64,000 nucleotides of DNA from Propioniciclava tarda (GTDB lineage: Bacteria; Actinomycetota; Actinomycetes; Propionibacteriales; Propionibacteriaceae). Positions 1 to 64,000 of the stretch are shown here, piece after piece. Made by a program: the position numbers and the translations under genes. The notes under the pieces were generated by a model, which saw only the letters and a list, made by a program, of their open reading frames with translations, was not told the origin of the DNA and did no database searches. Numbering within the stretch: the first letter of the stretch is position 1; every line of letters starts with the position of its first letter. The stretch lies in assembly GCF_900182665.1 (NCBI RefSeq), contig NZ_FXTL01000012.1:1-64000 (forward strand), written 5' to 3'.

Positions 1-118
1 CTGCGGACTCGACTCACCCTGCACAACCCAACAATTCCAGCCCAGAACCGATCAACGCGGCGGACTCGCGGACGGATTGTTCAGCAGGCTCCTAGGGCGC
101 ATCGCCTGAGGTGGCGGG

Positions 119-247
119 GCCTCGACAGGCTCAGCACCGAAAGCCTCAGCCGAGGCTCCGACAGGCTCAACCAACGCAGGACCCCGGTACGCCTTCGACA
201 GGCTCAACCAACGTAGGACTCAGACGAGACAGGCTCAGCCAACGAAG
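119..247. repeat. Cluster of four GACAGGCTCA-type repeats
   Basis: Four copies of a short element with core GACAGGCTCA begin at 124, 160, 197 and 228, about 31-37 nt apart. The better copies read CTTCGACAGGCTCAACCAACG. A further copy lies at 51444-51466 and a degenerate one near 54411. The rest of positions 1-265 has no convincing gene. Similar sequences occur in many actinobacterial intergenic regions as far as I recall; their function is unknown to me. The units differ and the intervening sequence is too short and irregular for a CRISPR array. Confidence 0.8.
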
Positions 248-265
248 TCCGCATCGATCAGCGCG

Positions 266-934
266 TCAGGACGCGCCGATCGCCGCGCGCCGTGACCGCT
301 TGCTGAGCGCTCGGCGCTGCTGCCAGAGGTCGAATCGACCCGGGTAGCGGGCGACGAGGTTCCCGAGTCGGTTGTCGCCACGGACCATGAGCTGCGGGAA
401 GCCGGGCGTCGCGCGCTCGGCGACCCCGTTCTTGATCGAGCCCATGCCCTTGGTCACCCGGGACGAGTCGACCCCCCAGCCGTCGGGCACGACCAGGACC
501 AGGTTCCCGGCGCGTCCGTTCATCACGATGTCGATGACCAGGGACACCGGCGTCGACTCGGTGAAGTTCAGTTTCACGTTGGCGGCCACCGGGTGCGCCT
601 CGAGGAACGGCGGGACGTCCCAGACGCCCAGGCGCTTCTCGTCCTCCCAGCGCGCCGTGAGGACCAGTGGGTCCTCCCAGCTGAATCCCGGACCTCGGCC
701 CTGCCGCACGGGCGTCCCTGCGACCAACTCGGCGAGCGCGAGCTGAGGCAGAACGTCGGCCAGCACCACGGCCAGCTCGCCGCGAGTCCTCGCGGACTGA
801 GCCCGCGGCGTCCGATCAGACAGTTCGGACGCCGTGAGGCGTCCGTCCGCGGCGGCCTTGGTCAAGGCCGCGATCGCGGCCTGACGTTCGGCGTCCCCGA
901 CCCGGACGAAGGGGGTGTCGATGCCAGAGGTCAC
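266..934 (-). CDS. DUF1707 domain protein
   Basis: A 222-residue protein. Residues about 10-60 match the DUF1707 pattern of actinobacteria: RVGDAER, a GRLTASELSDR segment, then ARTRGELAVVLADV. The C-terminal half contains LVVPDGWGV and alternating hydrophobic stretches like the beta-rich domain often attached to DUF1707. There is no clear membrane segment. DUF1707 is a short, possibly DNA- or protein-binding helical module of unknown role. The start is GTG, giving MTSGIDTPFV. The gene begins 9 nt after the cimA stop on the same strand, so co-transcription is likely. Function is not known. Confidence 0.8.
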   Translation of the reverse strand: MTSGIDTPFVRVGDAERQAAIAALTKAAADGRLTASELSDRTPRAQSARTRGELAVVLADVLPQLALAELVAGTPVRQGRGPGFSWEDPLVLTARWEDEKRLGVWDVPPFLEAHPVAANVKLNFTESTPVSLVIDIVMNGRAGNLVLVVPDGWGVDSSRVTKGMGSIKNGVAERATPGFPQLMVRGDNRLGNLVARYPGRFDLWQQRRALSKRSRRAAIGAS

Positions 935-943
935 GGGCCAAGA

Positions 944-2533
944 CTAGCCAGCCGCAGGCGTGGAGAGCCCCCAGCGGTAGCAGTCGTAGAGGGCCTCCCA
1001 GGACGCCTCGATGACATTGGTGCCGACGCCGACGCACGTCCATGTGCGGGAACCGTCCGTCATGTCGATGAGGACCCGCACGATGGCGTCCGTGCCGTGG
1101 CCCTGATCCATGATGCGGACGCGGTAGTCGACGAGGTCGAACGTCTCGGCGGCCGGGTACTTCGCCTTCAGGGCGCCGGTCAGGGCCTGGTCCAGCGCGT
1201 TCAGCGGCCCGAAGCCCTCGCCGACCAGCTTGGTGGTCTCGCCGTCGATGCGCACCTTGACGATCGCCTCGGAGTCGCCGTCCTCGCCCTGCTCGTTGCC
1301 GGTCCAGACGCGCCAGTGCAGGACCTCGAAGAACTCCTCCGACAGGCCCAGCGCGTCGCGCAGCAACAGCTCGAAGGACGCGTCCGCCGCCTCGTAGCTG
1401 TAGCCCTGGGCCTCACGCTCCTTGACCAGATCGGTGATCTCGGCGGCCTGAACGCGGTCGGAGATGTCGTAGCCGAGTTCCTCACCCTTGAGCTGGATGT
1501 TCGCGCGGCCAGCCATGTCAGAGACCAGCATGCGCATGTCGTTGCCGACGAAGGTCGGATCGGTGTGCTGGTACAGGTTGGCGTCCACCTTGATCGCGGA
1601 CGCGTGCAGTCCGGCCTTGTGCGCGAACGCCGAGTGGCCGACGTAGGGCTGGCGAGTGTTGGGCTGGACGTGGGTGATGGCGGCCACCGCGTGCGACGTC
1701 GCCGTGACCTTGGCGAGGGCGTCCGGGGCGACGATGTTCCAGCCGTACTTGAGCTGGAGGTTGGCGAGCACCGTGATCAGGTCGGCGTTGCCGGTGCGCT
1801 CTCCGTGGCCGTTGATGGTGCCCTGCACGTGCATGGCGCCGGCGTCCACGGCAGCGATGGTGTTCGCGACGGCGCAGCCCGTGTCGTTGTGGCAGTGGAT
1901 GCCGAGGTCGACGCCGACCTGACCGGCGGCGTCCACGACCTCACCCATCCAGCCGGGGAGCATGCCGCCGTTGGTGTCGCACATTACTACGACCTCGGCG
2001 CCGGCGTCCGCGGACGTCTTGACGACCTCCAACGCGTAGGCCGGGTTCGCTCGGTAGCCGTCGAAGAAGTGCTCGGCGTCGATGAAGACGCGGCGGCCCT
2101 CGCCGGTCAGGAACTTGACCGTGTCGGAGATCATCGCCAGGTTCTCGTCGAGGGTCGTCCGCAGCGCCCGATAAACGTGGGCATCGTGGCTCTTGGCGAC
2201 CAGGGTGATGACGGGGGTCTCGGCCTCCAGCAGCGCCCGGGTCAGCGGGTCGGACGAGGCCTGGCCGCCCACCTTGCGGGTCGAGCCGAAGGCGACCAAT
2301 TGAGAGTTGCGCAGCTTCAGCTCGCCGTCGGCGGCGGCCTTGAAGAAGGCCGTGTCGTTGGGATTGGCTCCCGGCCAGCCGCCCTCAATGAACGTGACGC
2401 CGAGGTCATCCAGCGATCGGGCGATGCGCAGCTTGTCGTGGACCGTGAGCCGGAGGCCCTCCTGCTGCGCACCGTCGCGCAGGGTGGTGTCGTAGACGTG
2501 GAAGACGTCGGGCGCGACGGGGACCATGGGCAT
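944..2533 (-). CDS. cimA: Citramalate synthase
   Basis: A 529-residue enzyme of the 2-isopropylmalate/homocitrate synthase family. It condenses pyruvate with acetyl-CoA to (R)-citramalate, the entry step of the threonine-independent isoleucine pathway. The N-terminal barrel opens with [12 protein letters not shown] (D15) and has the metal-ligand [13 protein letters not shown] motif. A C-terminal LeuA-type dimerisation/regulatory domain follows. The motif variant DGAQQEG and the length match CimA rather than LeuA. ATG at 2533 is preceded by AGGTGAGG seven bases upstream; a second ATG two codons later is less well placed. It diverges from tpx. Together with ilvE, leuB and ilvBNC nearby it suggests isoleucine is made from pyruvate. 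Confidence 0.93.
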
Positions 2534-2681
2534 GCGGAAACCTCACCTGCTGGGTTGCTGGGTCCGAGGAGTCTGCACGGTGTCCTGCAATGCGGTCTCA
2601 GATCTCGACCGGTGAGACCGCCCCGGTGAGGCTGGCACAGCGCCCACCGGTCGGCTTCTGGCCTGCGGCGTTCGGGGGTGC

Positions 2682-2687
2682 TAGAAA
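2682..2687 (+). promoter_or_regulatory. -10 box of tpx (leaderless mRNA)
   Basis: TAGAAA lies exactly 6 nt before the tpx ATG and no Shine-Dalgarno sequence intervenes. Transcription would begin at or next to the start codon. No convincing -35 box is visible. Confidence 0.55.
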
Positions 2688-2693
2688 GGCCGC

Positions 2694-3191
2694 ATGGCTG
2701 AAACCAAGTTCAAGGGCAATCCCATCCACACCAACGGCGACCTCCCGGCGGTTGGCGATCAGGCTCCTGCGTTCACGGTGACGGGCGCCAACCTGGCCGA
2801 CGTCACCCTCGGCGACTTCGCTGGCCAGCGCGTCGTCCTCAACGTCTTCCCGAGCATCGACACGGGCGTGTGCGCGACGTCCGTCCGCAAGTTCAACGAG
2901 CTTGCCGCCGGGCTCGACAACACCGCCGTCGTCTGCGTCTCGGCCGATCTGCCCTTCGCGCTCGGCCGCTTCTGCGGCGCCGAGGGCATCGAGAACGTCT
3001 CGGTCGCCTCGACCTTCCGTTCGGACTTCGCGACCGACTACGGCGTCAAGCTCACCGACAGCCCCCTGGCCGGCCTCTGCGCCCGCTCGGTCTTCGTCGT
3101 GGACGCCGACGGCACGCTCGTCTACAGCGAGCTCGTGCCCGAGACGGGCCAGGAGCCCGACTACGACGCCGCCGTCGCAGCGCTGGGCTGA
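2694..3191 (+). CDS. tpx: Thiol peroxidase (atypical 2-Cys peroxiredoxin)
   Basis: 165 residues, the usual size for Tpx. The enzyme reduces hydrogen peroxide and alkyl peroxides using thioredoxin. The peroxidatic cysteine is C60 in [15 protein letters not shown] and the resolving cysteine is C94 in [11 protein letters not shown], the two positions and the 34-residue spacing typical of the family. The surrounding PSIDT.VC motif is intact. No signal peptide is present, so it acts in the cytoplasm. It is transcribed divergently from cimA and followed by a strong hairpin, so it is probably monocistronic. Confidence 0.95.
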
Positions 3192-3214
3192 CCCGTCCAC
3201 CAGAACCGTCCATC

Positions 3215-3241
3215 GCGGCCCGTCCACCAGGGGCGGGCCGC
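3215..3241 (+). terminator. Terminator after tpx
   Basis: An 8-bp perfect stem, GCGGCCCG at 3215-3222 with CGGGCCGC at 3234-3241, encloses an 11-nt loop and is followed by TTGACTT. It starts 23 nt after the tpx stop. Confidence 0.65.
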
Positions 3242-3273
3242 TTGACTTAAGCTCGGTGTGGGAAGGCTTGACC

Positions 3274-4161
3274 ATGGCTGACGGACAATCGGCGTCGCTG
3301 AAAGACGCGACGGCCGCCGTCGTCGACCTCGTTCCAGGCGACGCCCGCTTCGCGGATCTCGCCGAGCGGGCGCTGCACCAGGCAGAGGCGGCCCTCGGGT
3401 CGCTGCCGCAGGACGATGAGGTCGTCCGCTACCTGGTCCCGGTGGTCATCCCGGCGGAAACGCTCGCGCACGGGGCTCTGCTGATCCTGCCGTCGCGGTG
3501 CGTGGCCGCTTGGCGCCAGCCGGGCAGCGGCCAGGTCCGGACGCGCGCGGTCGAGTTGGACGCCGAGACGTCCGTTGCCCTGTCGGCCGTCACGGTGGAC
3601 TCGGAGATCTGGGGCCGCTTCGACGTGATGCGTCCCGGGCAGGACGACCTCACCTTCCTCGTGCCCCCCGTCGACGCTGTCGCGCTGCCGGAGCTGCTGC
3701 GCCGCGTCCTGGTGCGCGAGCCGGGCGCCCACCTGGTGCCCTTCGCCGGAACGCCTCTCGGCGCTCGCTCGTGGGGCGCGGAGACTCCGCGCCAGACCCC
3801 CGACCCGGACCTAACCCAGCCGCTGTCGGCCCTCGACACGCCCGCGCCGCCCGCGTTGGCCGCTGCCCCGCTGCCCCCGCGACGCGTCGGTGACGAGGTC
3901 GCGATCGAGGTGCCTCTGTACCGCGACGAGGCCCTCTACCGGGACGACGGCTCCGCGCCGATGCACCCGCTGCCCGCGATCGAGCCGGTAGCCCCACTGC
4001 CCGCGCAGCCGCCCCAGGATCGGCCGTTGGACCTCCCGGCCGTCGCGCCGCGGCGCCGCGGCCTGCCGGACGCGCTCAAGGGCTTCCTGACCGGCCTCGT
4101 TGCGACCCTGGTCGTGGGCGGGTTCTACGTCCTCGCCAAGTGGCAGGGCTGGCTGGGCTGA
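3274..4161 (+). CDS. Tail-anchored membrane protein of unknown function
   Basis: A 295-residue protein that I cannot assign. Residues 1-180 form an apparently globular, cytoplasmic region rich in acidic residues and short beta-like stretches. Residues 180-265 are Pro/Ala/Asp-rich and look like a flexible linker. Residues about 272-292 (FLTGLVATLVVGGFYVLAKW) are the only membrane segment, near the C-terminus, so the body should face the cytoplasm. ATG at 3274 has GGAAGG 7 nt upstream. Its stop codon directly abuts the stop of the convergent gene (TGA|TCA), leaving no room for a terminator. Confidence 0.75.
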   Translation: MADGQSASLKDATAAVVDLVPGDARFADLAERALHQAEAALGSLPQDDEVVRYLVPVVIPAETLAHGALLILPSRCVAAWRQPGSGQVRTRAVELDAETSVALSAVTVDSEIWGRFDVMRPGQDDLTFLVPPVDAVALPELLRRVLVREPGAHLVPFAGTPLGARSWGAETPRQTPDPDLTQPLSALDTPAPPALAAAPLPPRRVGDEVAIEVPLYRDEALYRDDGSAPMHPLPAIEPVAPLPAQPPQDRPLDLPAVAPRRRGLPDALKGFLTGLVATLVVGGFYVLAKWQGWLG

Positions 4162-4653
4162 TCAGCCGATCTGGTAACGGCCGCACATGGGCCCAGGCGT
4201 GAGCTTGAGGGCCTCGCAGGTCGACGTGGCCTCGGCCATGCTCGCGAGCCCGACCACGACGATGGCGTACTGACCGGACTTTCCCCCCTTCAACTGCACC
4301 AGGTCGGTGTCGACGACGACGGCGGTCAGCTGCGGCGTCGAGCGCGTCGTGGCGTACTCGGACGCCTGTTCGAGCGTGAAGGACGTCTTCGGCATCCACC
4401 TGATCAGGGCGATCCAGCTGCCGGACGCCGGCGTCGCCAGTCCGCCGACCGATGTGGACGCCCCCGGCATGGACGACACCGCGACGACCGCGGTGCTCGG
4501 CGAGGCCGAGGGCGAGCCACCTGGACGCTGAGCAGCGGACTTGGCTGGCACCAACGATAGGGCGCCGATGACGAGAACGACGCCCGTCGCCACCCCGGCC
4601 ACGGCGCCTAGGGCGAAGCGACCGTTGCCGGAGCGGCCGCGTTCCTGGCTCAT
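4162..4653 (-). CDS. Membrane-anchored extracytoplasmic protein, unknown function
   Basis: 163 residues. A charged N-terminus (MSQERGRSGNGR) precedes one membrane segment at about 13-36, then a Ser/Pro/Ala linker to about residue 75. The compact C-terminal domain of about 85 residues contains two cysteines near its end (TCEALKLTPGPMCGRYQ) that could form a disulfide. Its fold resembles small SPOR-like domains, but the similarity is not strong enough to name it. ATG at 4653 is preceded by AGGAGGG and AAGGGG. It lies 30 nt downstream-facing from ilvE's end only by position; co-transcription with the upstream minus-strand genes is possible but not shown. Confidence 0.65.
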   Translation of the reverse strand: MSQERGRSGNGRFALGAVAGVATGVVLVIGALSLVPAKSAAQRPGGSPSASPSTAVVAVSSMPGASTSVGGLATPASGSWIALIRWMPKTSFTLEQASEYATTRSTPQLTAVVVDTDLVQLKGGKSGQYAIVVVGLASMAEATSTCEALKLTPGPMCGRYQIG

Positions 4654-4683
4654 CTGGCCCCTTCCCTCCTGATGGCTGACGGG

Positions 4684-5772
4684 TCAGCAGACCCGGTGCA
4701 TCCAGCCGAACGTGTCCTCGGCGCGTCCGAACTGAATATCGGTGATCGCCTCACGGATCTGCATGGTGATCGCGCCGGAGCCCGGCGGCAGCGCGTACTC
4801 GCCGGCCTTGCTCTTGAAGGCCCCGATCGGGCTGATCACGGCGGCGGTCCCACAGCAGAACGCCTCGACGAACTCGCCGGAGGTGATGCCGTCCCGCAGC
4901 TCGGACGCCCCCAGGGGACGCTCCTCGACCGCCAGGCCGAGCGAGCGGGCCACGGTGATGATCGAATCGCGGGTCACGCCGTGCAGGATGGTGCCGTCCA
5001 GGGCGGGGGTCACCAGGGCGCCGCCCTCGGACACGGCGAACACGTTCATGCCGCCGAGTTCTTCGACGTCGTGCTCCCCTGCCGGCTGGATGAAGAGCAC
5101 CTGCGAGCAGCCCTGCTGGTAGCCCTCGTACTGGGCGATCAAGCTGGAGGCGTAGTTGCCGCCGCACTTGGCGGACCCCGTCCCGCCCTGGCCGGCCCGC
5201 GAGTACTCGTCCGTCATCCAGATGTTGATCGGTCGGACGCCCTCGGCGAAGTAGGTGCCCACCGGCGAGGCGATCACGCAGAACAGCGCCCGCTCGGCCG
5301 CCCGGACACCCAGGAAGTTCTCGAACGCCATCATGAAGGGGCGCAGGTAGAGGCTCTGCTCGCCGCCCTCGGGATTCGGCACCCATCGGACGTCGGCCTT
5401 CACCAGCTCCCGGCAGGCGGTGAGGAAGTCCTCGACGGGCAGTTCCGGCAGCATCAACCGGGCGGCCGAGTGGACGAAGCGCTCGGCGTTCTTCTCGGGA
5501 CGGAAGAGCCAGACCGAGCCGTCCGCGTGCCGGTAGGCCTTCATCCCCTCGAAGATCTCCTGCGCGTAATGGAACACGGCTGAGGCCGGGTCCATCGAGA
5601 AGGGTCCGTAGGGCTTGATCGAGTCGTCCTGCCAGCCCTGGCCCTTGGTCCAGGTCGCCACGGCCATGTGATCGGTGAAATAGGTCCCGAAACCGGGATG
5701 GGCGAGGACCTCCGCCACGCGGGCGTCCGAGGCCGGAAGTGGGTTGGGCTGCAGCGGGAACGACAACGACAT
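4684..5772 (-). CDS. ilvE: Branched-chain amino acid aminotransferase
   Basis: 362 residues, PLP-dependent fold-type IV, of the BCAT type found in actinobacteria and eukaryotes. It catalyses the last step in leucine, isoleucine and valine synthesis. The PLP lysine is K202 in [13 protein letters not shown]. The [10 protein letters not shown] and YLRPFMMA motifs and the C-terminal [13 protein letters not shown] phosphate-binding segment are present. ATG at 5772 lies 6 nt downstream of TATCCT with no ribosome-binding site between, so the mRNA is probably leaderless. It is divergent from leuB. Confidence 0.95.
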
Positions 5773-5778
5773 GCTCGC

Positions 5779-5784
5779 AGGATA
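5779..5784 (-). promoter_or_regulatory. -10 box of ilvE (leaderless mRNA)
   Basis: On the minus strand TATCCT is followed by GCGAGC and then the ilvE ATG. The 6-nt spacing puts the transcription start at the start codon. Confidence 0.6.
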
Positions 5785-5842
5785 GCCACGCCGAACGGCG
5801 TCCGCGTGGCAGACGCACGCCTTCGGCGTCCGACCTGATCAC

Positions 5843-5848
5843 TAGGCT
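5843..5848 (+). promoter_or_regulatory. -10 box of leuB (leaderless mRNA)
   Basis: TAGGCT lies 7 nt before the leuB GTG, with no Shine-Dalgarno sequence. The divergent ilvE and leuB -10 boxes are about 58 bp apart, so the two promoters share this short interval. Confidence 0.6.
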
Positions 5849-5855
5849 GCGGGCC

Positions 5856-6917
5856 GTGACTGAACGGAACAAGAAGACGATCGCCGTCATCGGTGGCGAC
5901 GGTATCGGCCCCGAAGTTGTGGCCGAGGGATTGAAGGTCCTGTCGGCGACGGTCGGGGCGGATTCGCTCGATTTCGTGCACTACGACCTGGGCGCCGAGC
6001 GCTGGCTGCGGACGGGCGAGGTGCTGCCGGACTCGGTCGTGGACGAACTGCGCCAGGCGGACGCCATCCTGCTGGGTGCCGTGGGTGCGGCGCCGGGGTC
6101 GAAGACGATCCCCAGCGGCCTGCTCGAGCGGGGCCTGCTGCTGCGCCTGCGCTTCCTGCTCGATCACTACGTCAACCTGCGTCCGTCGAAGCTCTACCCG
6201 GGCGTCCCCACGCCGCTGGGCGAGAACATCACATCGCGCGGCCCTATCGACTTCGTCGTCGTCCGAGAGGGCACCGAGGGCCTGTACTGCGGCGTGGGCG
6301 GCGCCACGCGGGCCGGGACGCCGCATGAGATCGCCACCGAGGTCAGCGTCAACACGGCCTTCGGCGTCGAGCGCGTCGTCCGGGACGCCTACGAGCGGGC
6401 CATGAAGCGGCGCAAGAAGCTGACGCTGGTGCACAAGCACAATGTGCTGGTCAACGCGGGCGGGCTCTGGAACCGGCTGTTCCTCGCCGTGGGTGAGGAG
6501 TACCCCGAGGTTGAGACCGACTACCTGCACATCGACGCCACCACGATCGCCTTCGTGGCCGACCCGCAGCGCTTCGATGTGATCGTCACCGACAACCTCT
6601 TCGGCGACATCATCACCGACCTGGCGGGCGCCGTGACCGGCGGCATCGGGCTCGCGGCGTCCGGCAACATCAACCCCGAAGGCACGGCGCCGTCGATGTT
6701 CGAGCCCGTGCACGGCTCGGCCCCCGACATCGCCGGCCAGGGCATCGCGGACCCGACCGCCACGATTTCGTCGGTCGCGTTGATGCTGGACCACCTGGGG
6801 ATGACCGCCGAGGCGCGTCGGATCGAGGCGGCGGTGGACGCCGACATCGCCGAGCGCGGGGCGTCCAAGCGCTCGACCACGCAGGTCGGCGACGCCATCG
6901 CGGCGCGGCTGAGCTGA
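5856..6917 (+). CDS. leuB: 3-isopropylmalate dehydrogenase
   Basis: 353 residues from the GTG start, matching LeuB length. It oxidises and decarboxylates 3-isopropylmalate with NAD+ in leucine synthesis. Visible signatures are the N-terminal GGDGIGPEV, the substrate loop [17 protein letters not shown], and the metal-binding [26 protein letters not shown] region with [12 protein letters not shown] after it. A longer in-frame reading back to 5739 exists, but it runs through the ilvE promoter, and GTG at 5856 sits 7 nt after TAGGCT. Its divergence from ilvE suggests joint control of branched-chain synthesis. A strong hairpin follows the stop. Confidence 0.94.
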
Positions 6918-6929
6918 GGGCTGGGAATC

Positions 6930-6959
6930 GGTCGCGTCCGGGGATGTCCGGACGCGACC
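6930..6959. terminator. Bidirectional terminator built from GCGTCC/GGACGC
   Basis: A 12-bp perfect stem, GGTCGCGTCCGG at 6930-6941 with CCGGACGCGACC at 6948-6959, and a 6-nt loop. It lies between the convergent leuB and P-type ATPase genes. Both arms contain the over-represented hexamer GCGTCC/GGACGC. Confidence 0.75.
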
Positions 6960-6973
6960 TTCGAGCAGCGGCG

Positions 6974-10238
<3,265 letters not shown>

Positions 10239-10256
10239 CAACCGCTCAGCAACGCC

Positions 10257-10291
10257 AAGGGGCGTCCCGGTTCACCCGGGACGCCCCTTGT
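10257..10291. terminator. Bidirectional terminator between rpf and ilvC
   Basis: A perfect 15-bp stem: CAAGGGGCGTCCCGG at 10257-10271 pairs with CCGGGACGCCCCTTG at 10277-10291, loop TTCAC. On the plus strand TTGTTG follows; on the minus strand a corresponding run precedes ilvC's end. The stem contains GCGTCC/GGACGC. Confidence 0.85.
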
Positions 10292-10304
10292 TGCGTTCGT
10301 TGAC

Positions 10305-11921
<1,617 letters not shown>

Positions 11922-11925
<4 letters not shown>

Positions 11926-13670
11926 AGGACCTCATCCTCCCAGTCGGGAGCCATGTCCCGGGCAATCTTGATGTCGTCATTGCTGGTGCCCGCCGCGACC
12001 ATCGGCCACACCATGGCGTCCTTGTGGCAGACGAACTCCACCACGACCGGACGGTCGTTGGTCTCCATGGCCTGCTTGATGACCGCGTCGACCTCCTCGG
12101 GCGTCTCGGCACGGAGGCCCAGCGCGCCCATGGCCTCGGCGAGCATCGGGAAGTTCGGCACCCGCATCGATTCCAGGTTGGTGTTGCTGTAGCGCTGCCC
12201 GTAGAACAGCGTCTGCCACTGACGCACCATGCCGAGCGACTCGTTGTTGATGATCGCGATCTTGATCGGGATGTCGTTCAGCGTGCAGGTGACCAGCTCC
12301 TGGTTGGTCATCTGGAAGCAACCGTCGCCGTCGATGCCCCAGACCACCGACTCCGGACGCCCCACCTTCGCGCCCATCGCGGCCGGCACGCAGTAGCCCA
12401 TCGTGCCCGCGCCACCGGAGTTGAGCCAGCGTCCGGGCTTCTCGAAAGGCAGCAAGTGGGCGGCCCACATCTGGTGCTGGCCCACGCCGGACGCGAAGTA
12501 CGCGTCCGGACCGGCCAACTGGCCGAGTCGCTTGATCACGTAGCGCGGGCTGAGCTGCCCGTCGTGGGTGGGCTCGACGTCGTCGCGGTACTTGTCCTTG
12601 AGGTTGGTCAGATAGCGCACCCAGGCGGAGTAGTCGGGCAGATCGGCACCTCGCAGGACGCCGTTGAGCTCGGCGATCACGTCGCGGACGTCACCCACGA
12701 TCGGCACGTCGGCGACCCGGTTCTTGCTGATCTCGGCCGGGTCGATGTCGGCGTGGATGACGCGGGCCGTCGGCGCGAACGTGCTGAGCTTGCCGGTCAC
12801 CCGATCGTCGAACCGGGTGCCCAGCGCGATCAGCAGGTCGGCCTTCTGCAGCGCGCCCACGGCCGACACCGTGCCGTGCATGCCCGGCATGCCCATGTGC
12901 AGCTCGTGGCTGTCCGGGAACGCGCCGCGCGCCATCAGGGTGGTGACGAGGGGGATGCCGGTGATCTTCACCAGCTCGGCCAGTTCGTCGAATGCGGACG
13001 CCTTCACGACGCCGCCGCCCACGTAGAAGACCGGCCGGGACGACTCCGCGATCAGCTTGGCCGCCTCGCGGATCTGCTTCGTGTGCGGCTTCGTCGTCGG
13101 GTGGTAGCCGGGCAGGTCCACCGCGTCCGGCCAGCGGAACGGCGCCTTGGACGTGAGCGCGTCCTTGGCGAGGTCGACCAGGACGGGGCCGGGGCGTCCG
13201 GTGGAGGCGATGTGGAAGGCGGCCTTGATGGCGGCCGGGATGTCCTCGGCCCGCGTCACCAGGAAGCTGTGCTTGGTGATCGGGAAGGTGATGCCGCGGA
13301 TGTCGGCCTCCTGGAAGGCGTCCGTGCCGATGGCGGTCGACGCCACCTGGCCGGTGATCGCGACCATCGGGACGGAGTCCATGTAGGCGTCCGCGATGCC
13401 CGTCACCAGGTTGGTGGCGCCGGGGCCGGACGTGGCCATGCAGACGCCGACCTTGCCGGACGTCATCGCGTAGCCCTCTGCCGCGTGCGCGGCGCCCTGC
13501 TCGTGACGAACGAGGATGTGGCGCACGAGCTTGCTCTGCCCGAGCGGATCGTAGGCCGGCAGGATTGCGCCGCCTGGGATGCCGAAGACGACCTCGACGC
13601 CGACGCGCTCCAGGGACTCGACCAGCGCCTCGGCGCCGGTCAGCAGGGTGGGCGATCCATCATCGGTCAT
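11922..13670 (-). CDS. ilvB: Acetolactate synthase, catalytic large subunit
   Basis: 582 residues, a TPP- and FAD-dependent enzyme that condenses two pyruvates, or pyruvate with 2-ketobutyrate, at the first common step for valine, leucine and isoleucine. [12 protein letters not shown] and the catalytic-glutamate motif [14 protein letters not shown] lie near the N-terminus. The TPP motif runs from [14 protein letters not shown] to INN near residue 450. A longer reading to 13766 is open, but ATG at 13670 ([10 protein letters not shown]) has GGGAG nine bases upstream and the longer form would translate the attenuator. Expression is likely controlled by the leader at 13723-13848. Stop overlaps the ilvN start. 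Confidence 0.96.
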
Positions 13671-13722
13671 TCTCGTCTCCCTTGTATTCGTTGATCGTGG
13701 GCGGGGATCTCTGTCAGGCAAT

Positions 13723-13756
13723 AAAAAACCCCCGCTGCCGCGACGGCAAACGAGGG
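13723..13756 (-). terminator. Attenuator terminator of ilvBNC
   Basis: On the minus strand CCCTCG (13756-13751) pairs with CGGGGG (13734-13729). An inner stem GCCG/CGGC closes a TCG loop, and six T follow (13728-13723). It lies 52 nt before the ilvB ATG and just after the leader peptide and its hairpin. This is a textbook intrinsic terminator in an untranslated leader. Confidence 0.85.
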
Positions 13757-13786
13757 AGCGTGTCAACCGCGAGGGGCCGACACGCT
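13757..13786 (-). promoter_or_regulatory. Leader (pause-type) hairpin before the attenuator
   Basis: AGCGTGTC (13786-13779) pairs perfectly with GACACGCT (13764-13757) across a 14-nt loop. Its left arm begins inside the stop codon of the leader peptide and its right arm abuts the terminator stem. A ribosome stalled on the Leu/Val codons would mask the left arm. I did not find a strong antiterminator by eye; RNA folding is needed. Confidence 0.7.
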
Positions 13787-13814
13787 ATCGAACTACGAGA
13801 AGAGAATTCCGCAC
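13785..13814 (-). CDS. ilvB leader peptide (attenuation)
   Basis: A nine-codon reading frame GTG CGG AAT TCT CTT CTC GTA GTT CGA TAG encodes MRNSLLVVR. Four of nine residues are leucine or valine in a row, the end products of the operon. The GTG lies 6 nt after the -10 box TATGCT, so the leader mRNA should be leaderless. A hairpin and a U-tract terminator follow. C. glutamicum ilvBNC is known to be attenuated through such a peptide. Scarcity of charged Leu or Val tRNA should stall the ribosome and permit read-through. Confidence 0.8.
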   Translation of the reverse strand: MRNSLLVVR

Positions 13815-13820
13815 CTGGCC

Positions 13821-13848
13821 AGCATAGCCATGGCGTCCCGTCTGTCCA
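13821..13848 (-). promoter_or_regulatory. Promoter of the ilvBNC operon
   Basis: On the minus strand TGGACA (13848-13843) and TATGCT (13826-13821) are 16 bp apart. The start point falls at or beside the leader-peptide GTG at 13814. Confidence 0.65.
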
Positions 13849-13889
13849 CACTTTGACCTGCCCCTGCCCACCATGTGGACGGCCTGCGC

Positions 13890-14285
13890 TCAGACCAGAC
13901 GGCGGTAGACCTCATCGACGTCGATGTCGTCATCCCGGGTCAGCATCGCCTCGATGCCGGAGGCGTCCTGGAAGCGCGGGATCAGGTGAACGTGCAGGTG
14001 GAAGACCGACTGCCCGGACACCTCGCCCACGTTCGTGAGGATGTTCATTCCCTGGGCGCCCAGCCGCTCGGTGAGCAGCCGTCCCACGGCCGTGATGGCC
14101 GGTGCCAGGGACGCCAGCACGTCGGCGTCCGCCAGAGCGTCGGAGACGTGCTGGCGCGACACCACCAGCGTGTGGCCGCGCTTGAACGGCGCGATGTCCA
14201 GGAAGGCCACGGCGTCGTCACCGGCGTAGACCTGCCGAGAGGGGATGTCACCCGCCACGATGCGGCAAAACAGGCAGTCGGACAT
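13890..14285 (-). CDS. HIT-family nucleotide hydrolase/transferase
   Basis: 131 residues with the histidine triad FHLHVHLIPR near residue 100 and the N-terminal CLFCRIVAGDIP segment whose two cysteines often join in zinc binding in this subfamily. HIT proteins of this HinT-like type cleave AMP from phosphoramidates; the in vivo substrate is unknown. I chose ATG at 14285 (MSDCLFC) because homologues start there; an upstream in-frame start at 14312 adds an unconvincing nine residues. It lies 76 nt after hisF and may be co-transcribed with it. Confidence 0.9.
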   Translation of the reverse strand: MSDCLFCRIVAGDIPSRQVYAGDDAVAFLDIAPFKRGHTLVVSRQHVSDALADADVLASLAPAITAVGRLLTERLGAQGMNILTNVGEVSGQSVFHLHVHLIPRFQDASGIEAMLTRDDDIDVDEVYRRLV

Positions 14286-14361
14286 GGACTCATCTTTGCA
14301 GGTTGAGACCACCCACGAGATGGTGGTGGATTCGCGACTGTTGTCGGGGGCGAATCCACCT

Positions 14362-15129
14362 TTATCCCAGCCGGACGGGGAAACCGGCTTGGGACAGCGC
14401 CTGCTTGACTCCCGCGATCCGCAGGGTTCCGTAGTGAAAGACGGACGCCGCCAAGACGGCGTCGGCGCCGGCGCGGGCGGCGTCCACGAAGTGCTCGACC
14501 GTGCCCGCCCCGCCGGACGCGATGAGCGGGACGTCCACCACGGCCCGGACCGCCTCGATCATCTCCAAGTCGAAGCCGGAGGTGGTCCCGTCGGCGTCCA
14601 TGGAGTTGAGCAGGATCTCCCCCGCCCCACGATCGACGGCCTCTTTGGCCCACTCGATGGCGTCCAGGCCCGCGGACGTGCGACCGCCGTGGGTGGTGAC
14701 GCCGAAGCCGGACGGCTGCCCGGCCTCGCGCCGGGCGTCCAGGCTCAGCACGACCACCTGGTTGCCGAACCGCGCGGCGATCTCGTCGATGGCTTCCGGA
14801 CGCGTGATCGCGCCCGTGTTGATGCCGATCTTGTCGGCGCCGGTGCGCAGCAGCCGATCGACGTCATCGACCCCCCGGACGCCCCCGCCGACGCAGAGGG
14901 GAATGAAGACCGTCTCGGCCGTCCGGCGCACCATCTCGTAGGTGGTGGCGCGGCCGTCGGAGGAGGCCGAGATGTCCAGGAAGGTGAGCTCGTCGGCCCC
15001 CTCGAGGCCGTATGTGGTGGCCAGTTCCACGGGATCGCCCGCATCGCGCAAGGACCGGAAGTTGATCCCCTTGACCACGCGCCCGTCGTGAACGTCGAGG
15101 CACGGAATCACCCGGATGGCGAGGCTCAT
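14362..15129 (-). CDS. hisF: Imidazole glycerol phosphate synthase, cyclase subunit
   Basis: 255 residues, a single TIM barrel. With HisH it turns PRFAR and ammonia into imidazole glycerol phosphate and AICAR in histidine synthesis. The catalytic aspartates are D12 in [15 protein letters not shown] and D131 in VLSLDARR. Phosphate-binding loops CVGGGVRG and ASGGAG are present. No other his gene is in the window, so hisF is detached from its usual cluster. ATG at 15129 follows TAACCT by 6 nt, suggesting a leaderless mRNA and a promoter of its own. Confidence 0.96.
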
Positions 15130-15135
15130 GAGGTT

Positions 15136-15141
15136 AGGTTA
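15136..15141 (-). promoter_or_regulatory. -10 box of hisF (leaderless mRNA)
   Basis: On the minus strand TAACCT, then AACCTC, then the hisF ATG. Spacing 6 nt; no Shine-Dalgarno sequence. Confidence 0.5.
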
Positions 15142-15207
15142 GCGAGCCTCACTCAGCCTCCCGCGCCCGTCCACTACGCTCGCCGCAACGTGGGACCAGG
15201 GGGATGG

Positions 15208-16461
15208 ATGACGCCACGGCTCTCATACCGGACGGCCAGCGCGGCCGGGTTGGCAATTCTGGCCCTGACGGGCTGCACGGCCGGGGCTGCGGTTCCGGCC
15301 GGGCCCACTCCGCCGCAGCCAGCGTCCAGTCCTAGTCCGGCTGCGAAGACGCCGGCCAAGGCCTCGACCAAGCCCTCCGCAGCCAAGCCGTCGGCGACCA
15401 CGTCCGCCACCCCGACAACCCCGGCCGCGCCGCCCGCACCACCGCCCGCCTCGCGGCCTCCGATCACCGGCGCCGATCCGGTGACGATGGCGTTCGCCGG
15501 CGACGTCCACTTCGAGAAAGACAAGCTGCGCGCCGTGGCGGCAGACCCGAACGGGCTGTCGTCCCTCAAGCCTTACCTGTCCCGCGCGGACATCACGGTC
15601 GTGAACCTCGAGACGGCCGTAACGACCCGCGGCACCCCTATTGCGGGCAAGCAGTTCACCTTCAGGGCGCCCGAGTCTGCGCTGACAACGCTGGCCAACG
15701 CCGGAGTCGATGTCGCGGGCATGGCCAACAACCACGGCGCCGACTTCGGACCCGTCGGGCTGGTCGACACCATGAAGGCTCTGCCTGGCGCTCCCCTCAA
15801 GGTCATCGGCATCGGCCAGAACCTCGACCAGGCGCTGTCTCCCGCCACCTTCACCGTCGACGGGGTGAGCATCGCCGTCTTCAACGCCAGCGCGCTGAAG
15901 GAGGAGACGACCAACCTCTTTACCGCGTCCGCGACCAAGCCGGGTGTCGCGGCGCTGGTCAAGCCGTACAAGTCCACCTCGGCCAAGCGGTTCCTCGCCG
16001 CGGTCAAGGACGCCTCCGCCCGCTACGACGTCGTCGTTGCCTTCCTCCATTACGGGGAGGAAGGGCAAACGTGCCCCACTCCGAAGCAGGTCGAGGTCGT
16101 GAACCTGCTCGCGGACGCGGGCGCCGACGCGGTCATCGGGGGCCACAGCCACCGCGTCCAGGCCGGGGGCTGGACCAAGGACACGTACGTGAACTACGGC
16201 CTCGGCAGCTTCACCTGGTGGCTGGTGCCAAGCCAGCCGGCGACCGGCGTGCTGACCATCTCGATCGACAAGCAGCGGGTCGCAGCCAAGCGCGCGGCCG
16301 GCGCGGCGGCGTCCGCGTCGGTCATCACCAAGGAGGACTGGCAGCCGATGCTGATCGGCGCCAGCGGCCTGCCCTCCGTGCCGGACGCCGCGGGCGTCGC
16401 CCGGCTGAACGCCGCTCGCCAGGGCCTGCTGGGCTGTTCGAAGCTCAGTCCGGCGCCGTAG
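15208..16461 (+). CDS. CapA-family lipoprotein (metallophosphoesterase fold)
   Basis: 417 residues. A lipoprotein signal ends in the lipobox LTGC (C23), so the protein should be anchored to the outer face of the membrane. An Ala/Pro/Ser/Thr linker (about 25-90) precedes a PGA_cap/CapA domain (about 93-345). Its motifs are FAGDVHF, VVNLETAV, MANNHGADFG, FLHYGEE and IGGHSHRVQ, which form a calcineurin-like metal site. Homologues include the poly-gamma-glutamate CapA protein, but no capB or capC is nearby, so the substrate is unknown. ATG at 15208 is preceded by GGGGGA. The gene overlaps the convergent antiporter by 17 bp. Confidence 0.88.
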   Translation: MTPRLSYRTASAAGLAILALTGCTAGAAVPAGPTPPQPASSPSPAAKTPAKASTKPSAAKPSATTSATPTTPAAPPAPPPASRPPITGADPVTMAFAGDVHFEKDKLRAVAADPNGLSSLKPYLSRADITVVNLETAVTTRGTPIAGKQFTFRAPESALTTLANAGVDVAGMANNHGADFGPVGLVDTMKALPGAPLKVIGIGQNLDQALSPATFTVDGVSIAVFNASALKEETTNLFTASATKPGVAALVKPYKSTSAKRFLAAVKDASARYDVVVAFLHYGEEGQTCPTPKQVEVVNLLADAGADAVIGGHSHRVQAGGWTKDTYVNYGLGSFTWWLVPSQPATGVLTISIDKQRVAAKRAAGAAASASVITKEDWQPMLIGASGLPSVPDAAGVARLNAARQGLLGCSKLSPAP

Positions 16462-17599: not shown

Positions 17600-17697
17600 T
17601 TCGTGGACCTTCTTCGTCGAATGCCCGGACGGGATCGGGTGAGCCTACTCCTGACCGGGCCACAACCCGCTCACCTGCGCCGGCCGAGTGTCGACGC

Positions 17698-17716
17698 CGC
17701 CCCGTAGCGTGGGGCG
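17698..17716 (-). terminator. Weak hairpin after helY
   Basis: CGCCCC at 17698-17703 and GGGGCG at 17711-17716 enclose a 7-nt loop, 6 nt beyond the helY stop. No U-tract follows, so termination is uncertain. Confidence 0.35.
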
Positions 17717-17722
17717 AGGGTC

Positions 17723-20477: not shown

Positions 20478-21413
20478 TCAGGACGGCCAGGCCGGGGCGG
20501 GCGTGTAGAGCCTGATGGCCCCGGGGACGGCGCGGCAGGTGAACGGGGGGCGTCCGAGCTCCTCGCCGTCGGCCATGCCGAACAGGCCGTCGCCGTCGAT
20601 ACCGACCTCGGTGGCGCGCAGGAGCTCGACCGCCGGATGCTTCGCGAACGTGCCGTCGAACAGGCGCGGCAGCAGCTTGATCAGGGTGCCGCGTCCGACC
20701 GGATGGACGATCGTGACATCGAGCAGGCCGTCGCGGACGTCGGCGTCCGGGCAGCCCTTCATGCCGCCGCCGAAGACGCCGGCGTTGCCGACGGCGATGA
20801 GGATCGAGTCCAGCTCGCGGGGGACGCCGTCGATCTCGATGCGGTACGCCAGGGGCTTGAACTTGGCTAGCTCGATGATCACCGAGTACGCGTACGACGG
20901 TGCGCCGAGGCTGATCGGCAGGTGGTTGTTGCGCCAGTTGACCTTCTCGTCGAAGCCGCTGGACAGGATCGAGCCCACCCAGCGCCGCTGGGAGCCGTCG
21001 ACGAGCTCGCCGTCGACGCTCATCAGGTCGAGGTCCTCGGTGTGGCCGGCGGCGATGACTGCCAGCGCCTGGTCCACCGTGGTGGGCAGCCCGACGCCGC
21101 GGCAAAAGTCGTTGCCCGTGCCGGCAGGCACGATGCCGAGCGGCACGCCGCTCTGCGCCGCGGCGTTGAGACCGATGGACGTCATGCCGTCGCCGCCCAT
21201 CATCAGCAGCCCGTCGCTGCCGGACGCCTCCCCGATCACCCTGGACGCCTGCGCGCGGGCGTCCGCGTAGTCGGTGGTGAGCCGGACGGTGACGTCGGCG
21301 TCCGGAAGCAGGCGACCCAACTCCGCGACAACCCTGGGCAGCAGGCGGCGGGCCTTGCCGCGTCCCGACGACGGGTTCACCAGGAGCGTCAGCCGACGCC
21401 GAACCTCCGTCAC
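20478..21413 (-). CDS. Diacylglycerol/lipid kinase family protein
   Basis: 311 residues of the DagK/YegS/sphingosine-kinase fold. RRLTLLVNPSSGRGKA opens the nucleotide-binding domain and GIVPAGTGNDFCRG gives the second glycine-rich motif. The central motif reads MGGDGMTS, with methionine where GGDGT is usual. The C-terminal beta domain has the GNAGVFGGGMKGCPDADVRDG segment. The likely reaction is phosphorylation of diacylglycerol or a related lipid. GTG at 21413 overlaps the tatC stop as GTGA, implying coupling. Upstream in-frame sequence to 21974 is a shadow of tatC. Confidence 0.9.
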   Translation of the reverse strand: MTEVRRRLTLLVNPSSGRGKARRLLPRVVAELGRLLPDADVTVRLTTDYADARAQASRVIGEASGSDGLLMMGGDGMTSIGLNAAAQSGVPLGIVPAGTGNDFCRGVGLPTTVDQALAVIAAGHTEDLDLMSVDGELVDGSQRRWVGSILSSGFDEKVNWRNNHLPISLGAPSYAYSVIIELAKFKPLAYRIEIDGVPRELDSILIAVGNAGVFGGGMKGCPDADVRDGLLDVTIVHPVGRGTLIKLLPRLFDGTFAKHPAVELLRATEVGIDGDGLFGMADGEELGRPPFTCRAVPGAIRLYTPAPAWPS

Positions 21414-37197: not shown

Positions 37198-41553
<4,356 letters not shown>

Positions 41554-52899: not shown

Positions 52900-53714
52900 C
52901 TCGGGTGCTGGTCCTCGGGGGCGGCGGGACCACGGGCATCGCCTGGGAGTGCGGCGTCCTCGACGCCCTGACCGACGCCGGCGTCGACGTCGACGCGGCC
53001 GACCGGGTGGTCGGCACGTCGGCGGGTGCGCTGGTGGGCGCCTTCCTCTGCCTCGGCTTCTCGCCCCGCGAGTTGGCCACGACGCTGGTCGACAACGTCC
53101 GCACGATCGGACGCCTCGACCCCGGCGCCGTCCTTCGGCTGGTCTCGTCGCAGGTCGGCCGCGATCGGACGGTCGCCATCCGGCGCCTGGCCGCGTCCGG
53201 GCGCAACGCCTCCGGCCTCTCCGAGGACGCCTTCGTCGACGCGATCTCGGCGCACCTGGTGGGCCGCGGTTGGCCCGACCGACTGGTCGTCACGACGGTG
53301 AACGCGGCCACGGGGCGACCCGTGATCCTGGACGCCGCCGCTGGGGTCGACCTTGGCATCGCCGTTGCGGCGTCCTGCTCGGTACCTGGCGTGTTCCCGC
53401 CGGTCAGGATCGACGGCGTCCCCCACGTCGACGGCGGCGTCCGCAGCCCGGCCAACGTGGATCTCGCCGCCGACGCGGACGCCGTCATCGCTCTGGCGCC
53501 CTTCCAGCAGGCGTTCGATCCGGCTCGGCGGCCCGGCGTCCAGGCGCGGCAGCTCCCGGCCCGGACGGGCTGGCTCTACGTCCGGCCGGACGCGACCGCC
53601 CGGCGCGCGATCGGCCTAGACGCCCTCAGCGCCGCCCGTCGCGAGGGCGCCCGCGCGGCCGGACGCCGCCAGGGCAGGTCCGCCGCCGTCGCGGCCGGAC
53701 GCATCTGGCGGTAG
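52896..53714 (+). CDS. Patatin-like phospholipase
   Basis: 272 residues. The oxyanion loop GGGGTTG, the nucleophile S42 in GTSAG and D179 in VDGG give the patatin Ser-Asp dyad. No signal peptide, so probably a cytoplasmic lipid acyl hydrolase. GTG at 52896 overlaps the previous stop, which fixes the start and indicates coupled translation with the membrane-anchored protein. An Arg/Ala-rich tail follows the domain. Confidence 0.9.
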   Translation: MTRVLVLGGGGTTGIAWECGVLDALTDAGVDVDAADRVVGTSAGALVGAFLCLGFSPRELATTLVDNVRTIGRLDPGAVLRLVSSQVGRDRTVAIRRLAASGRNASGLSEDAFVDAISAHLVGRGWPDRLVVTTVNAATGRPVILDAAAGVDLGIAVAASCSVPGVFPPVRIDGVPHVDGGVRSPANVDLAADADAVIALAPFQQAFDPARRPGVQARQLPARTGWLYVRPDATARRAIGLDALSAARREGARAAGRRQGRSAAVAAGRIWR

Positions 53715-59237: not shown

Positions 59238-59246
59238 CGGGCCGCG

Positions 59247-60970: not shown

Positions 60971-61333
60971 CTGTGGATGTCTTGGGGGTGACCAGTCGTG
61001 GCCTGTGAGGTGTCCTGTTGACAACAAAATACAGCGCTGTGTTTCGCTCCAGGCACTTGCGCACCTAGTCAAAGGCAGATTAGAAAGAGGGCACCGCAGC
61101 AGGCCGGGCGAACCGACAGGAAAGCCAGGGCTGAAGTGAAGCCGAGGGAGACTGGCCGAAAGGCCCGCCACCCGACAGCATCGCTCCAGGTGGAAGGCTC
61201 GCAGCGGGGCACCATCTCGGTGTCGGTCTCTCGCCTTCGGGGCAACTCGAGGGGGGCCTGCGGGTGACGCGCAGACCAGGTCGACGCATCGGGCGGTGCA
61301 GATCGGAATCGTCACCAGCTTCCCGATCGACCC
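60971..61333. other. Unexplained non-coding interval
   Basis: About 360 bp with no credible reading frame on either strand; translated products are Pro/Arg/Ser-rich and lack any fold pattern. A TTGACA occurs at 61018-61023 but no matching -10 is obvious. The interval contains several short inverted segments (for example GCGCTG and CAGCGC near 61035) and almost no GCGTCC/GGACGC, unlike its surroundings. I could not fit it to RNase P RNA, tmRNA, SRP RNA or a riboswitch I know. A non-coding RNA ended by the hairpin at 61334 is possible. Confidence 0.4.
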
Positions 61334-61775: not shown

Positions 61776-61781
61776 GGTGAC

Positions 61782-61787
61782 AGCCTA
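61782..61787 (-). promoter_or_regulatory. -10 box of the zincin gene (leaderless mRNA)
   Basis: TAGGCT on the minus strand, 6 nt (GTCACC) before the ATG. Confidence 0.55.
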
Positions 61788-61814
61788 CGGACTCGAGCGC
61801 AGCGCCCTCCGCAC

Positions 61815-61820
61815 TACGAT
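61815..61820 (+). promoter_or_regulatory. -10 box of the double-GNAT gene (leaderless mRNA)
   Basis: TACGAT lies 6 nt (CGCCGG) before the GTG at 61827. The divergent -10 of the zincin gene is about 30 bp away. Confidence 0.55.
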
Positions 61821-61826
61821 CGCCGG

Positions 61827-62936: not shown

Positions 62937-62970
62937 GCGAACTGTCGGAGGCGTCCGCCATCGTTGCGGC

Positions 62971-63213: not shown

Positions 63214-63300
63214 GAGGAGCCCCGTGAGCGAACGTTGGTACGAAACATGGTCTTGGCGTGGGACCACCCACTTCACCTGGCCGCCCGGCTAGGCCGCTCG

Positions 63301-63374
63301 TGGGGGGTGCGGGGCTCGAACCCGCGACCCAGGGATTATGAGTCCCCTGCTCTGACCGGCTGAGCTAACCCCCC
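63301..63374 (-). tRNA. tRNA with CAU anticodon (Met or Ile2)
   Basis: 74 nt fold cleanly: acceptor GGGGGGT/ACCCCCC, D arm GCTC/GAGC, anticodon stem GGGGA/TCCCT with loop CTCATAA, T arm GCGGG/CCCGC with TTCGAGC. Anticodon CAT. Discriminator A, CCA not encoded. The 3-C/G-free D arm and loop do not show initiator features, so it is elongator Met or lysidine-modified Ile2. Confidence 0.93.
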
Positions 63375-63459
63375 GCGTCGATGGGCCAGCCTAGTGCCCG
63401 CGAGTCGACGCCGGTGCGTGATCCGCCGAGGCACCTCGGTGAACCCGGGCCAACAAGAA

Positions 63460-63498
63460 AGGCGTCCGACTAGGTGTTTCACCCAATCTCGGACGCCT
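63460..63498 (-). terminator. Terminator of tRNA-Asn, built from GCGTCC/GGACGC
   Basis: AGGCGTCCGA at 63460-63469 pairs with TCGGACGCCT at 63489-63498, with an inner GGTG/CACC stem. On the minus strand TTTCTTGTTG follows. It begins 5 nt after the tRNA-Asn CCA. Confidence 0.8.
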
Positions 63499-63503
63499 GC
63501 TGG

Positions 63504-63579
63504 TGGCTCCCCCGCCTGGACTCGAACCAGGAACCTGCGGATTAACAGTCCGACGCTCTGCCAATTGAGCTACAGGGGA
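63504..63579 (-). tRNA. tRNA-Asn (GTT)
   Basis: 73 nt plus an encoded CCA. Acceptor TCCCCTG/CGGGGGA, anticodon stem TCGGA/TCCGC with loop CTGTTAA (anticodon GTT), T arm CCTGG/CCAGG with TTCGAGT, discriminator G. Confidence 0.96.
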
Positions 63580-63692
63580 TCGCGCTCGCGCGAGAAGGAA
63601 CGTTAGCAGAATCATGCCCGCTCGCCCAATCGAGGGCGCCGACTCGCACCGCCCCCACCGATGACCGCACCGCCCGCCACCGAGACGGATTC

Positions 63693-64000
63693 TCAGGCGC
63701 GTCCGGCGTCCAGGTAGGCGATCACAGCAGCGACGATGGCGCGCTCGGCGTCCGCCCGGTCGACGGTCGGGACGCCGTCACCGGCCTGCGGTCCGTAGCG
63801 TCCGAAGAAGCTATGCACGGCTCCGGGGATGACGACGAGCCGACTCCCGGCCGGCAGGCGATCCAGACCGCCGCGGACGGCGTCCGCCTTCGCGACGCCG
63901 TCGAGTTCGGCCTGCAGGCTCAGCGCCTTGAAGGACGCCGAGGTCAGCGAGTCCCCTTCGGCCGGGTAGGCGGCCATCAGGATCAGTCCCGACAGCTTGG
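63693..64000 (-). CDS. Alpha/beta hydrolase, C-terminal part (5' end outside window)
   Basis: The visible 3' part reads to the window edge in an open frame containing LSGLILMAAYPAEGDSL, LPAGSRLVVIPGAVHSFFGRYGPQ and a final helix ERAIVAAVIAYLDAGRA. The histidine in GAVHSFFG is the expected catalytic His. The nucleophile lies outside. The internal ATG at 63977 is not the true start. Confidence 0.8.
   Translation of the reverse strand, partial: KLSGLILMAAYPAEGDSLTSASFKALSLQAELDGVAKADAVRGGLDRLPAGSRLVVIPGAVHSFFGRYGPQAGDGVPTVDRADAERAIVAAVIAYLDAGRA

Follow-up and report, generated by a model that had tools for sequence, protein, structure and literature searches.

GGACGC, a very dense hexamer under DNA-level pressure in Propioniciclava tarda and its genus, and its possible role as a self-DNA word

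Why should one short, non-palindromic word recur every 150 bases or so throughout an actinobacterial genome? The question is raised by a stretch of 64,000 nucleotides from Propioniciclava tarda (contig NZ_FXTL01000012.1, positions 1 to 64,000, hereafter the window), in which the hexamer GGACGC and its complement GCGTCC are found 431 times (1..64000, both strands, within and between genes, about one per 148 bp), whereas 100 dinucleotide-preserving shuffles gave 144.1 +- 12.5 copies. Under a maximal-order Markov model it was the sole hexamer of the window with a strong excess (431 versus 289.1, z 8.3; runner-up z 4.5), and in 464 kb of the same genome the corresponding values were 3113 versus 2040 and z 23.8, with the runner-up at z 9.8. 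The whole genome (2,974,143 bases) contains 10,001 + 10,151 = 20,152 copies, that is 6.8 per kb or about one per 150 bases, as compared to 2,017 + 1,998 = 4,015 for the reversed word. A preliminary description of the window had singled out the hexamer as over-represented, and shuffles, Markov models and the codon shuffle described below all make the case more strongly than was claimed there.

Genes were called with simple codon-usage callers and not with a trained annotator. For 229 of 340 called genes (score >60, length at least 450; 300,762 nt) we shuffled synonymous codons within each gene, and observed 2,105 copies against 828.4 expected (2.54x, z 66.7), the largest excess of any hexamer; the next hexamers in rank (z 39.8 and 38.1) overlap GGACGC. 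All six combinations of frame and strand were in excess, with values of 6.15, 2.77 and 1.65 for GGACGC and of 3.99, 1.75 and 7.79 for GCGTCC. GGA accounted for 60.6% of the glycine codons before CGC (323 of 533) and for only 7.1% elsewhere (591 of 8279), just as had been noticed by eye, and CGT made up 65.2% of the arginine codons in the motif context versus 7.2% elsewhere. Between genes, too, GGACGC was the top hexamer: for 239 regions of 30-600 bp (37,268 bp in total) a first-order Markov model predicted 64.3 copies and 224 were present (3.5x); the same model applied to coding DNA yielded 2707 versus 877 (3.1x). The 18 one-mismatch neighbours occurred at 0.54-1.08 of expectation, so that all six letters are needed, and the flanks displayed a mild preference for C on both sides, with the 8-mer CGGACGCC at 4.63x expectation.

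Since the excess survives the codon shuffle, spans six phases and recurs between genes, the pressure acts on DNA and not mainly on protein, as the preliminary description had argued. Codon usage as the whole cause is ruled out by the excess over the codon shuffle together with that in intergenic DNA; the alternative that had been set against the original claim, a count no higher than expected from codon and dinucleotide use, was not found.

The excess is lineage-specific and is supported mainly for a single small bacterial branch. The word abounds in all 13 genomes of the genus (3.0-6.8 per kb; densities per genome are based on rounded genome sizes), while 140 of 142 other genomes of the order contain less than 2.4 per kb and the remaining two, G070 and G094, 3.2-3.3 per kb, with codon-shuffle ratios of 1.21x (16 kb) and 1.45x (47 kb), respectively. 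Among 295 other genomes sampled from the phylum the highest density was about 2.9 per kb (G267), with the remainder at or below about 2.4 per kb; unrelated high-GC genomes are thus not at the same level. Comparison groups of similar GC content had no excess, which rules out a universal property of high-GC genomes. For relatives the codon shuffle was run on small samples (1.5 to 92 kb of coding DNA each, except for G147 with 291 kb) and gave ratios of 1.43-2.12x for members of the genus, very small samples excepted (G149, 0.74 in 2.5 kb and 1.64 in 54 kb; G152, 0.37 in 2.2 kb). Named loci around the ketol-acid reductoisomerase gene, among the 35 of 80 loci that were listed, put the clade in the vicinity of Propioniciclava, Micropruina and Propionicimonas. 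Ratios here were 2.01x for L093 (Propionibacterium sp. metagenome-assembled genome AS27, 89% identity, 6.2 per kb), 1.66x, 1.92x and 1.68x for metagenome-assembled genomes of Propioniciclava (L100), Micropruina (L129) and Propionicimonas (L139), 1.73x for L127, 1.05x for Micropruina SSC1 (L096) and 0.72x for five pooled Tessaracoccus loci. The 7-mer GGCGTCC was, by raw counts, likewise elevated in genus g37 and in parts of g31 and g6. Separately, in genus g169 of family f21 (G406 and G512) GGACGC exceeded the reversed control 4.2-4.6 times, albeit at a low density of about 1.3 per kb.

GGACGC, with a mild extension to CGGACGCC, is a sharply defined DNA word, very dense genus-wide, on both strands, in coding DNA or not, and under weak DNA-level pressure. 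This pattern suggests that some protein reads GGACGC, perhaps to recognise DNA as the cell's own.

To quantify the strength of the pressure, we used 285 of 430 genes from a second codon-usage caller. At positions where the protein permits the word, it was present in 2,395 of 4,322 cases (55.4%), as compared to 21.5% after shuffling. The corresponding odds ratio of 4.5 would translate into a scaled coefficient of about 1.5 if equilibrium between mutation, selection and drift holds. Two further genus members had the word at 33.0% (G147) and 36.7% (G083) of such positions versus 20.0% and 20.6% after shuffling, whereas the outsiders Tessaracoccus (13.2% versus 18.3%) and Knoellia (13.7% versus 20.2%) fell below their shuffled values.

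Single sites turn over. At identical peptides in P. tarda and its relatives, the odds ratio for sharing the word was 2.69 (280/360/98/339) when 14 of the 18 relatives were combined, a pool that excludes three Tessaracoccus loci and one Nocardioides locus, while eight control hexamers gave 2.41-13.8, six of them at 5.0-6.2, and GGACGC ranked below seven of the eight. The positions are not specially conserved: sites are exchangeable and density is what is kept. A regulatory or positional function is disfavoured, since sites turn over. Neither are proteins within the genus bent towards the word, as peptides capable of encoding it were found, in comparisons with seven genus members, only in P. tarda in 704 cases and only in the relative in 699; for all 18 relatives the counts were 1,335 and 1,237.

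Where the word was present in P. tarda and absent in a relative, 212 of 258 single-letter differences were transversions (145 multi-letter differences were set aside), with the caveat that, at such a GC content, the synonymous alternative usually differs by a C/G swap. Mutation or repair biased by context, or some unrecognised effect of the surrounding sequence, might create such a word without any function, and the weakness of the pressure, its indifference to position and the correlation of density with GC content (r 0.74 in overlapping 4-kb windows, lower in low-GC stretches) all agree with it. The transversions speak weakly against such a bias, for the reason just given. The involvement of all frames and strands, the need for all six letters and the excess in intergenic DNA also count against it, as does the fact that comparison groups with a similar GC content show no such excess; we regard this explanation as quite improbable.

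In a foreign-looking island (G000:C4, 1-17 kb, 7 genes), the only one tested, 22 words were present versus 21.1 expected, that is no excess, and 27 genes with GC content at third codon positions of 0.75-0.85 had a ratio of 1.73 as compared to 2.5-2.6 elsewhere. The same island carries the only match of the genome to the methylase family PF00145. An orphan DNA methyltransferase that recognises GGACGC, with or without methylation-dependent repair, might let the word accumulate as its substrate or by-product. A non-palindromic hexamer with one A suits an adenine methylase acting on one strand, which counts for this explanation, as does a CcrM-like enzyme of P. tarda in motif-rich surroundings (L201:9505-10362). 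A relative of this enzyme, 76% identical, is however encoded by G095, a genome without excess, in which GGACGC falls below the reversed control (2,009 + 1,985 versus 2,434 + 2,381). PF01555 methylases were present in 40 of 57 family genomes and absent from G086, PF00145 matches in 31 of 57 and absent from G083, and PF02384 matches in 12 of the 13 genus members and again absent from G083, all word-bearing members of the genus. The PF01555 and PF00145 searches covered 4 of the 13 members, and a genus-wide methylase was found in none of the three families, others such as Eco57I- or MmeI-like enzymes not having been searched for. A word of this type would resemble the highly iterated palindrome (HIP) words of cyanobacteria, which are GC-rich, genome-wide and lineage-specific and track a cognate methylase according to the relevant passages of PMC4390886; the described HIPs are palindromic and GGACGC is not. 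The changes at lost or gained sites were moreover of many kinds and did not point to a single repair channel. A methylase origin along these lines is unlikely in our view, if deserving of serious attention. The variant with deamination and very-short-patch repair is disfavoured, since C5 methylases are not genus-wide and most of the single differences are of types other than C/T or G/A.

Two further observations concern genes of this kind. A defence-like cluster at L220:4925-8074 (G000:C2) and its neighbours, in which one protein weakly matches PglX-type methylases, is by eye common to P. tarda, G147 and G149 (relatives in L222 and L223), and has a word density mostly below the genome mean. 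A protein of 1,636 aa at L221:3872-8779 (G000:C18; 3.9 words per kb), with weak matches to restriction helicases and to PF02384, is possibly a single-chain restriction-modification enzyme, judging from these matches.

The relative orientation of the words bears on two other explanations. Consecutive sites had the same orientation in 1,387 cases and opposite orientation in 1,705, the reverse of what is expected for Chi, and most of the surplus was due to close pairs (<20 nt, 251 opposite versus 62 same). A Chi-like recombination hotspot read by RecBCD would agree with the presence of the RecC family PF04257 in 56 of 57 family genomes, P. tarda included (RecB and RecD were not searched for), and with the description of Chi words in the relevant part of PMC8022716 as short and over-represented in core DNA. 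A weak strand tilt in G147, with 577 words on the strand of positive GC skew versus 502 on the other, points the same way; it was summed from 12 of 21 sampled stretches with a division into origin and terminus halves assumed from the skew. The missing polarity disfavours Chi, RecC is equally present in genomes where the word is not enriched, and the related word CGTACG of genus g11 (see below) is palindromic and cannot be polar, so that this is the explanation to which we give the smallest chance.

Close inverted pairs are what a dimer might favour, and a binding site for an abundant nucleoid-associated or chromosome-organising protein would also be expected on both strands and in coding as well as non-coding DNA. 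At offsets of 9-18 we counted 155 opposite versus 53 same pairs, the second highest ratio among 52 frequent hexamers. The pairs lacked a fixed spacing, the close-pair surplus in G147 was weaker (70 versus 42), and a nucleoid protein by itself leaves the missing excess in the island unexplained. We consider it improbable, to about the same degree as mutation bias. Pairs with extended arms were mostly genic by the first gene caller (58 of 79 and 73 of 98).

Our leading guess among these readings, to which we assign a probability of about 0.36, is that exchange of self DNA is biased by sequence and acts as a molecular drive. This fits most of the features, namely the strand symmetry, the turnover of sites, the absence from the island and the pattern of clade and possible dialects. 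A protein acting on incoming or recombining DNA would prefer word-bearing fragments, and word-bearing alleles would thereby displace word-less ones; the word would accumulate wherever the protein sequence permits a synonymous change, turn over freely between species and be absent from newly acquired DNA. If the reader protein changed, the favoured word would differ from genus to genus, giving rise to dialects. By analogy, the word would work like a DNA uptake sequence, and may be one of that class. Natural transformation has been described, in the literature extracts considered here, for one actinobacterium, Micrococcus luteus.

Words that may represent such dialects were seen in two other genera. 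The top codon-shuffle word was GGCGTAC in g9 (3 genomes, 104 kb of coding DNA; 4.83x, z 19.6; GCGTCC 0.81x) and CGTACG in g11 (2 genomes, 109 kb; 3.19x, z 17.2; GGCGTACG 4.75x; GCGTCC 0.72x), and a core CGT-C is common to GGCGTCC, GGCGTAC and CGTACG. None of seven comparison pools (g5, g2, Tessaracoccus, Knoellia, Nocardioides, Kineosporia and Arachnia) had a word with z >9.0. Dialects across genera of the family are a lead suggested by these sequences rather than a result. The wider proposal, that Actinobacteria recognise self DNA by a word which has dialects at the genus level (GGCGTCC, GGCGTAC, CGTACG), is driven by uptake or exchange and is by raw density the densest of the systems compared, is tentative and on balance doubtful.

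The words in g9 (L057, L235-L240) also alternate between strands. Neighbouring GGCGTAC copies switched strand in 115 of 166 steps versus 85.8 +- 6.4 under permutation (100 of 151 without 15 steps that are overlapping palindromes), and same-strand intervals <500 bp were too few (26% versus 34%). None of nine other 7-mers tested had this pattern. Other words were in excess as well. AGCGTG/CACGCT occurred at 1.48-1.74x over the maximal-order Markov model in P. tarda (the window and L001-L020), G147 (L021-L023, L060-L077), g9 (L057, L235-L240) and g11 (L058, L229-L234), and is not among the top four words given for the pools of Tessaracoccus and Nocardioides. CAACTC/GAGTTG was at 2.2-3.7x over the codon shuffle in L100, G149 (L032, L189, L205, L223, L224) and G086 (L024, L025, L225), and AACTCG/CGAGTT at 2.1-2.9x in L100 and G086.

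Several observations weigh against a drive by exchange of self DNA. The density would be several times what uptake of ordinary fragments needs, and the one-mismatch variants have no excess, whereas one-off variants add 21% in K. oralis according to the figures given in PMC3630211. We found no report of competence in the genus at the level of a literature listing. ComEC was detected in each of the 57 family genomes searched, whether or not they carry the word (56 above the curated cut-off), and its presence does not track the word; a receptor or reader protein was not found, ComEC being the only uptake component searched for and no search having been made for pilins or nucleoid proteins. Under the codon shuffle the word was in excess but not the top hexamer in G107 (rank 9), G086 (rank 6) and G150. 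The peptides are slightly tilted relative to unenriched relatives (three Tessaracoccus, one Nocardioides, L096 and L104), with 321 word-capable peptides only in P. tarda versus 257 only in the relative, so the pressure may be not purely synonymous. As for the dialects, the samples were small, GGCGTAC (1.06x) and CGTACG (1.24x) were unremarkable under maximal-order Markov models, and in further families of the order raw GGCGTAC counts are likewise above those of the reversed word, which codon use may explain. Lastly, the word is not specially enriched at terminator-type positions: gaps of 30-600 bp yielded 3.12x between convergent, 3.23x between divergent and 3.82x between tandem genes (first-order Markov model).

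A terminator signal as the main role is ruled out, since convergent regions are not richer than divergent or tandem ones, and the special enrichment in terminator stems that the preliminary description had claimed is in this respect not confirmed. The three inverted pairs quoted there do exist. A perfect 10-bp inverted repeat with a 10-nt loop (6930..6959; GGTCGCGTCC / GGACGCGACC) lies between the convergent genes 5856-6917 (+) and 6977-9346 (-), and another of 14 bp with a 5-nt loop and one word per arm (10257..10289; AAGGGGCGTCCCGG / CCGGGACGCCCCTT) between the convergent genes 9558-10238 (+) and 10308-11339 (-). The third (63460..63498; AGGCGTCCGA / TCGGACGCCT, 19-nt loop) is located between the tRNA-Met gene (63300-63374, minus strand) and the tRNA-Asn gene (63504-63579, minus strand), behind the latter and with a T-rich tail on the minus strand, and may be the terminator of the tRNA-Asn gene. 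By eye, T-rich tails were present at the hairpins 10257..10289 and 63460..63498 and missing at 6930..6959; a terminator scan of 1-20000 listed neither of the two hairpins in that range. Among 47 non-coding hairpins with stems of at least 10, six had the word on the 5' arm (4 GCGTCC, 2 GGACGC), too few to judge. Counting both arrangements, inverted pairs numbered 2+4 in 47 convergent, 2+6 in 67 divergent and 9+15 in 125 tandem regions.

The hand counts made earlier for two genes on the minus strand were correct, with 9 copies at 20481..21413 and 10 at 37200..38858 (labelled lipid kinase and pyrG, respectively, in the preliminary description), and all eight GGACGC positions quoted there have the word within 9 bases. 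The densest called gene of the window, among those of at least 0.6 kb, is located at 52905..53714 on the plus strand and contains 13 copies in 0.8 kb. The non-coding interval 60971..61333 (363 bp) does lack the word, but not as a special feature, because only about 2.4 copies are expected there at 6.7 per kb and zero is within chance.

Dense and largely confined to a clade, GGACGC can be read as the trace of a protein's preference, and thus offers a handle on the discrimination of self from foreign DNA or on chromosome organisation. If the word is driven by exchange, high-GC Gram-positives would possess sequence-biased gene exchange, and foreign islands in these genomes could be spotted cheaply by their word density. 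No such word was found reported for Actinobacteria in titles and abstracts, a coverage outside which bioRxiv preprints and most subscription journals fall.

Among known systems, the Chi sites of RecBCD and AddAB are likewise short and over-represented, and RecC is present here, but GGACGC lacks their strand polarity. HIP1 and the alternate HIPs of cyanobacteria are also very abundant GC-rich words with lineage-specific variants and no agreed function. HIP1 is, in the description given in the relevant part of PMC4390886, an 8-bp palindrome with 300-2700 copies per Mb and observed/expected ratios of 55-228, whereas GGACGC is a non-palindromic hexamer with about 6,800 copies per Mb, only 2.5-3 times expectation, and has no genus-wide methylase in the three families searched. 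The DNA uptake sequences (DUS) of Neisseriaceae and the uptake signal sequences of Pasteurellaceae differ from GGACGC in several respects, as it is shorter (6-7 bp versus 10-12 for DUS) and lacks a preference for terminator regions, a halo of one-off variants and a known receptor, and its host is Gram-positive. Its density of 6.8 per kb compares with 2.5 per kb for the densest DUS considered, kingDUS (5,918 copies in 2.4 Mb by the counts given in PMC3630211), although counts of a hexamer are not directly comparable with those of a 10- to 12-mer. With these uptake words GGACGC nevertheless shares the genome-wide distribution of a short word on both strands and in coding as well as intergenic DNA, the restriction to a clade, perhaps variant words in relatives, some inverted pairs and scarcity in an apparently foreign island.

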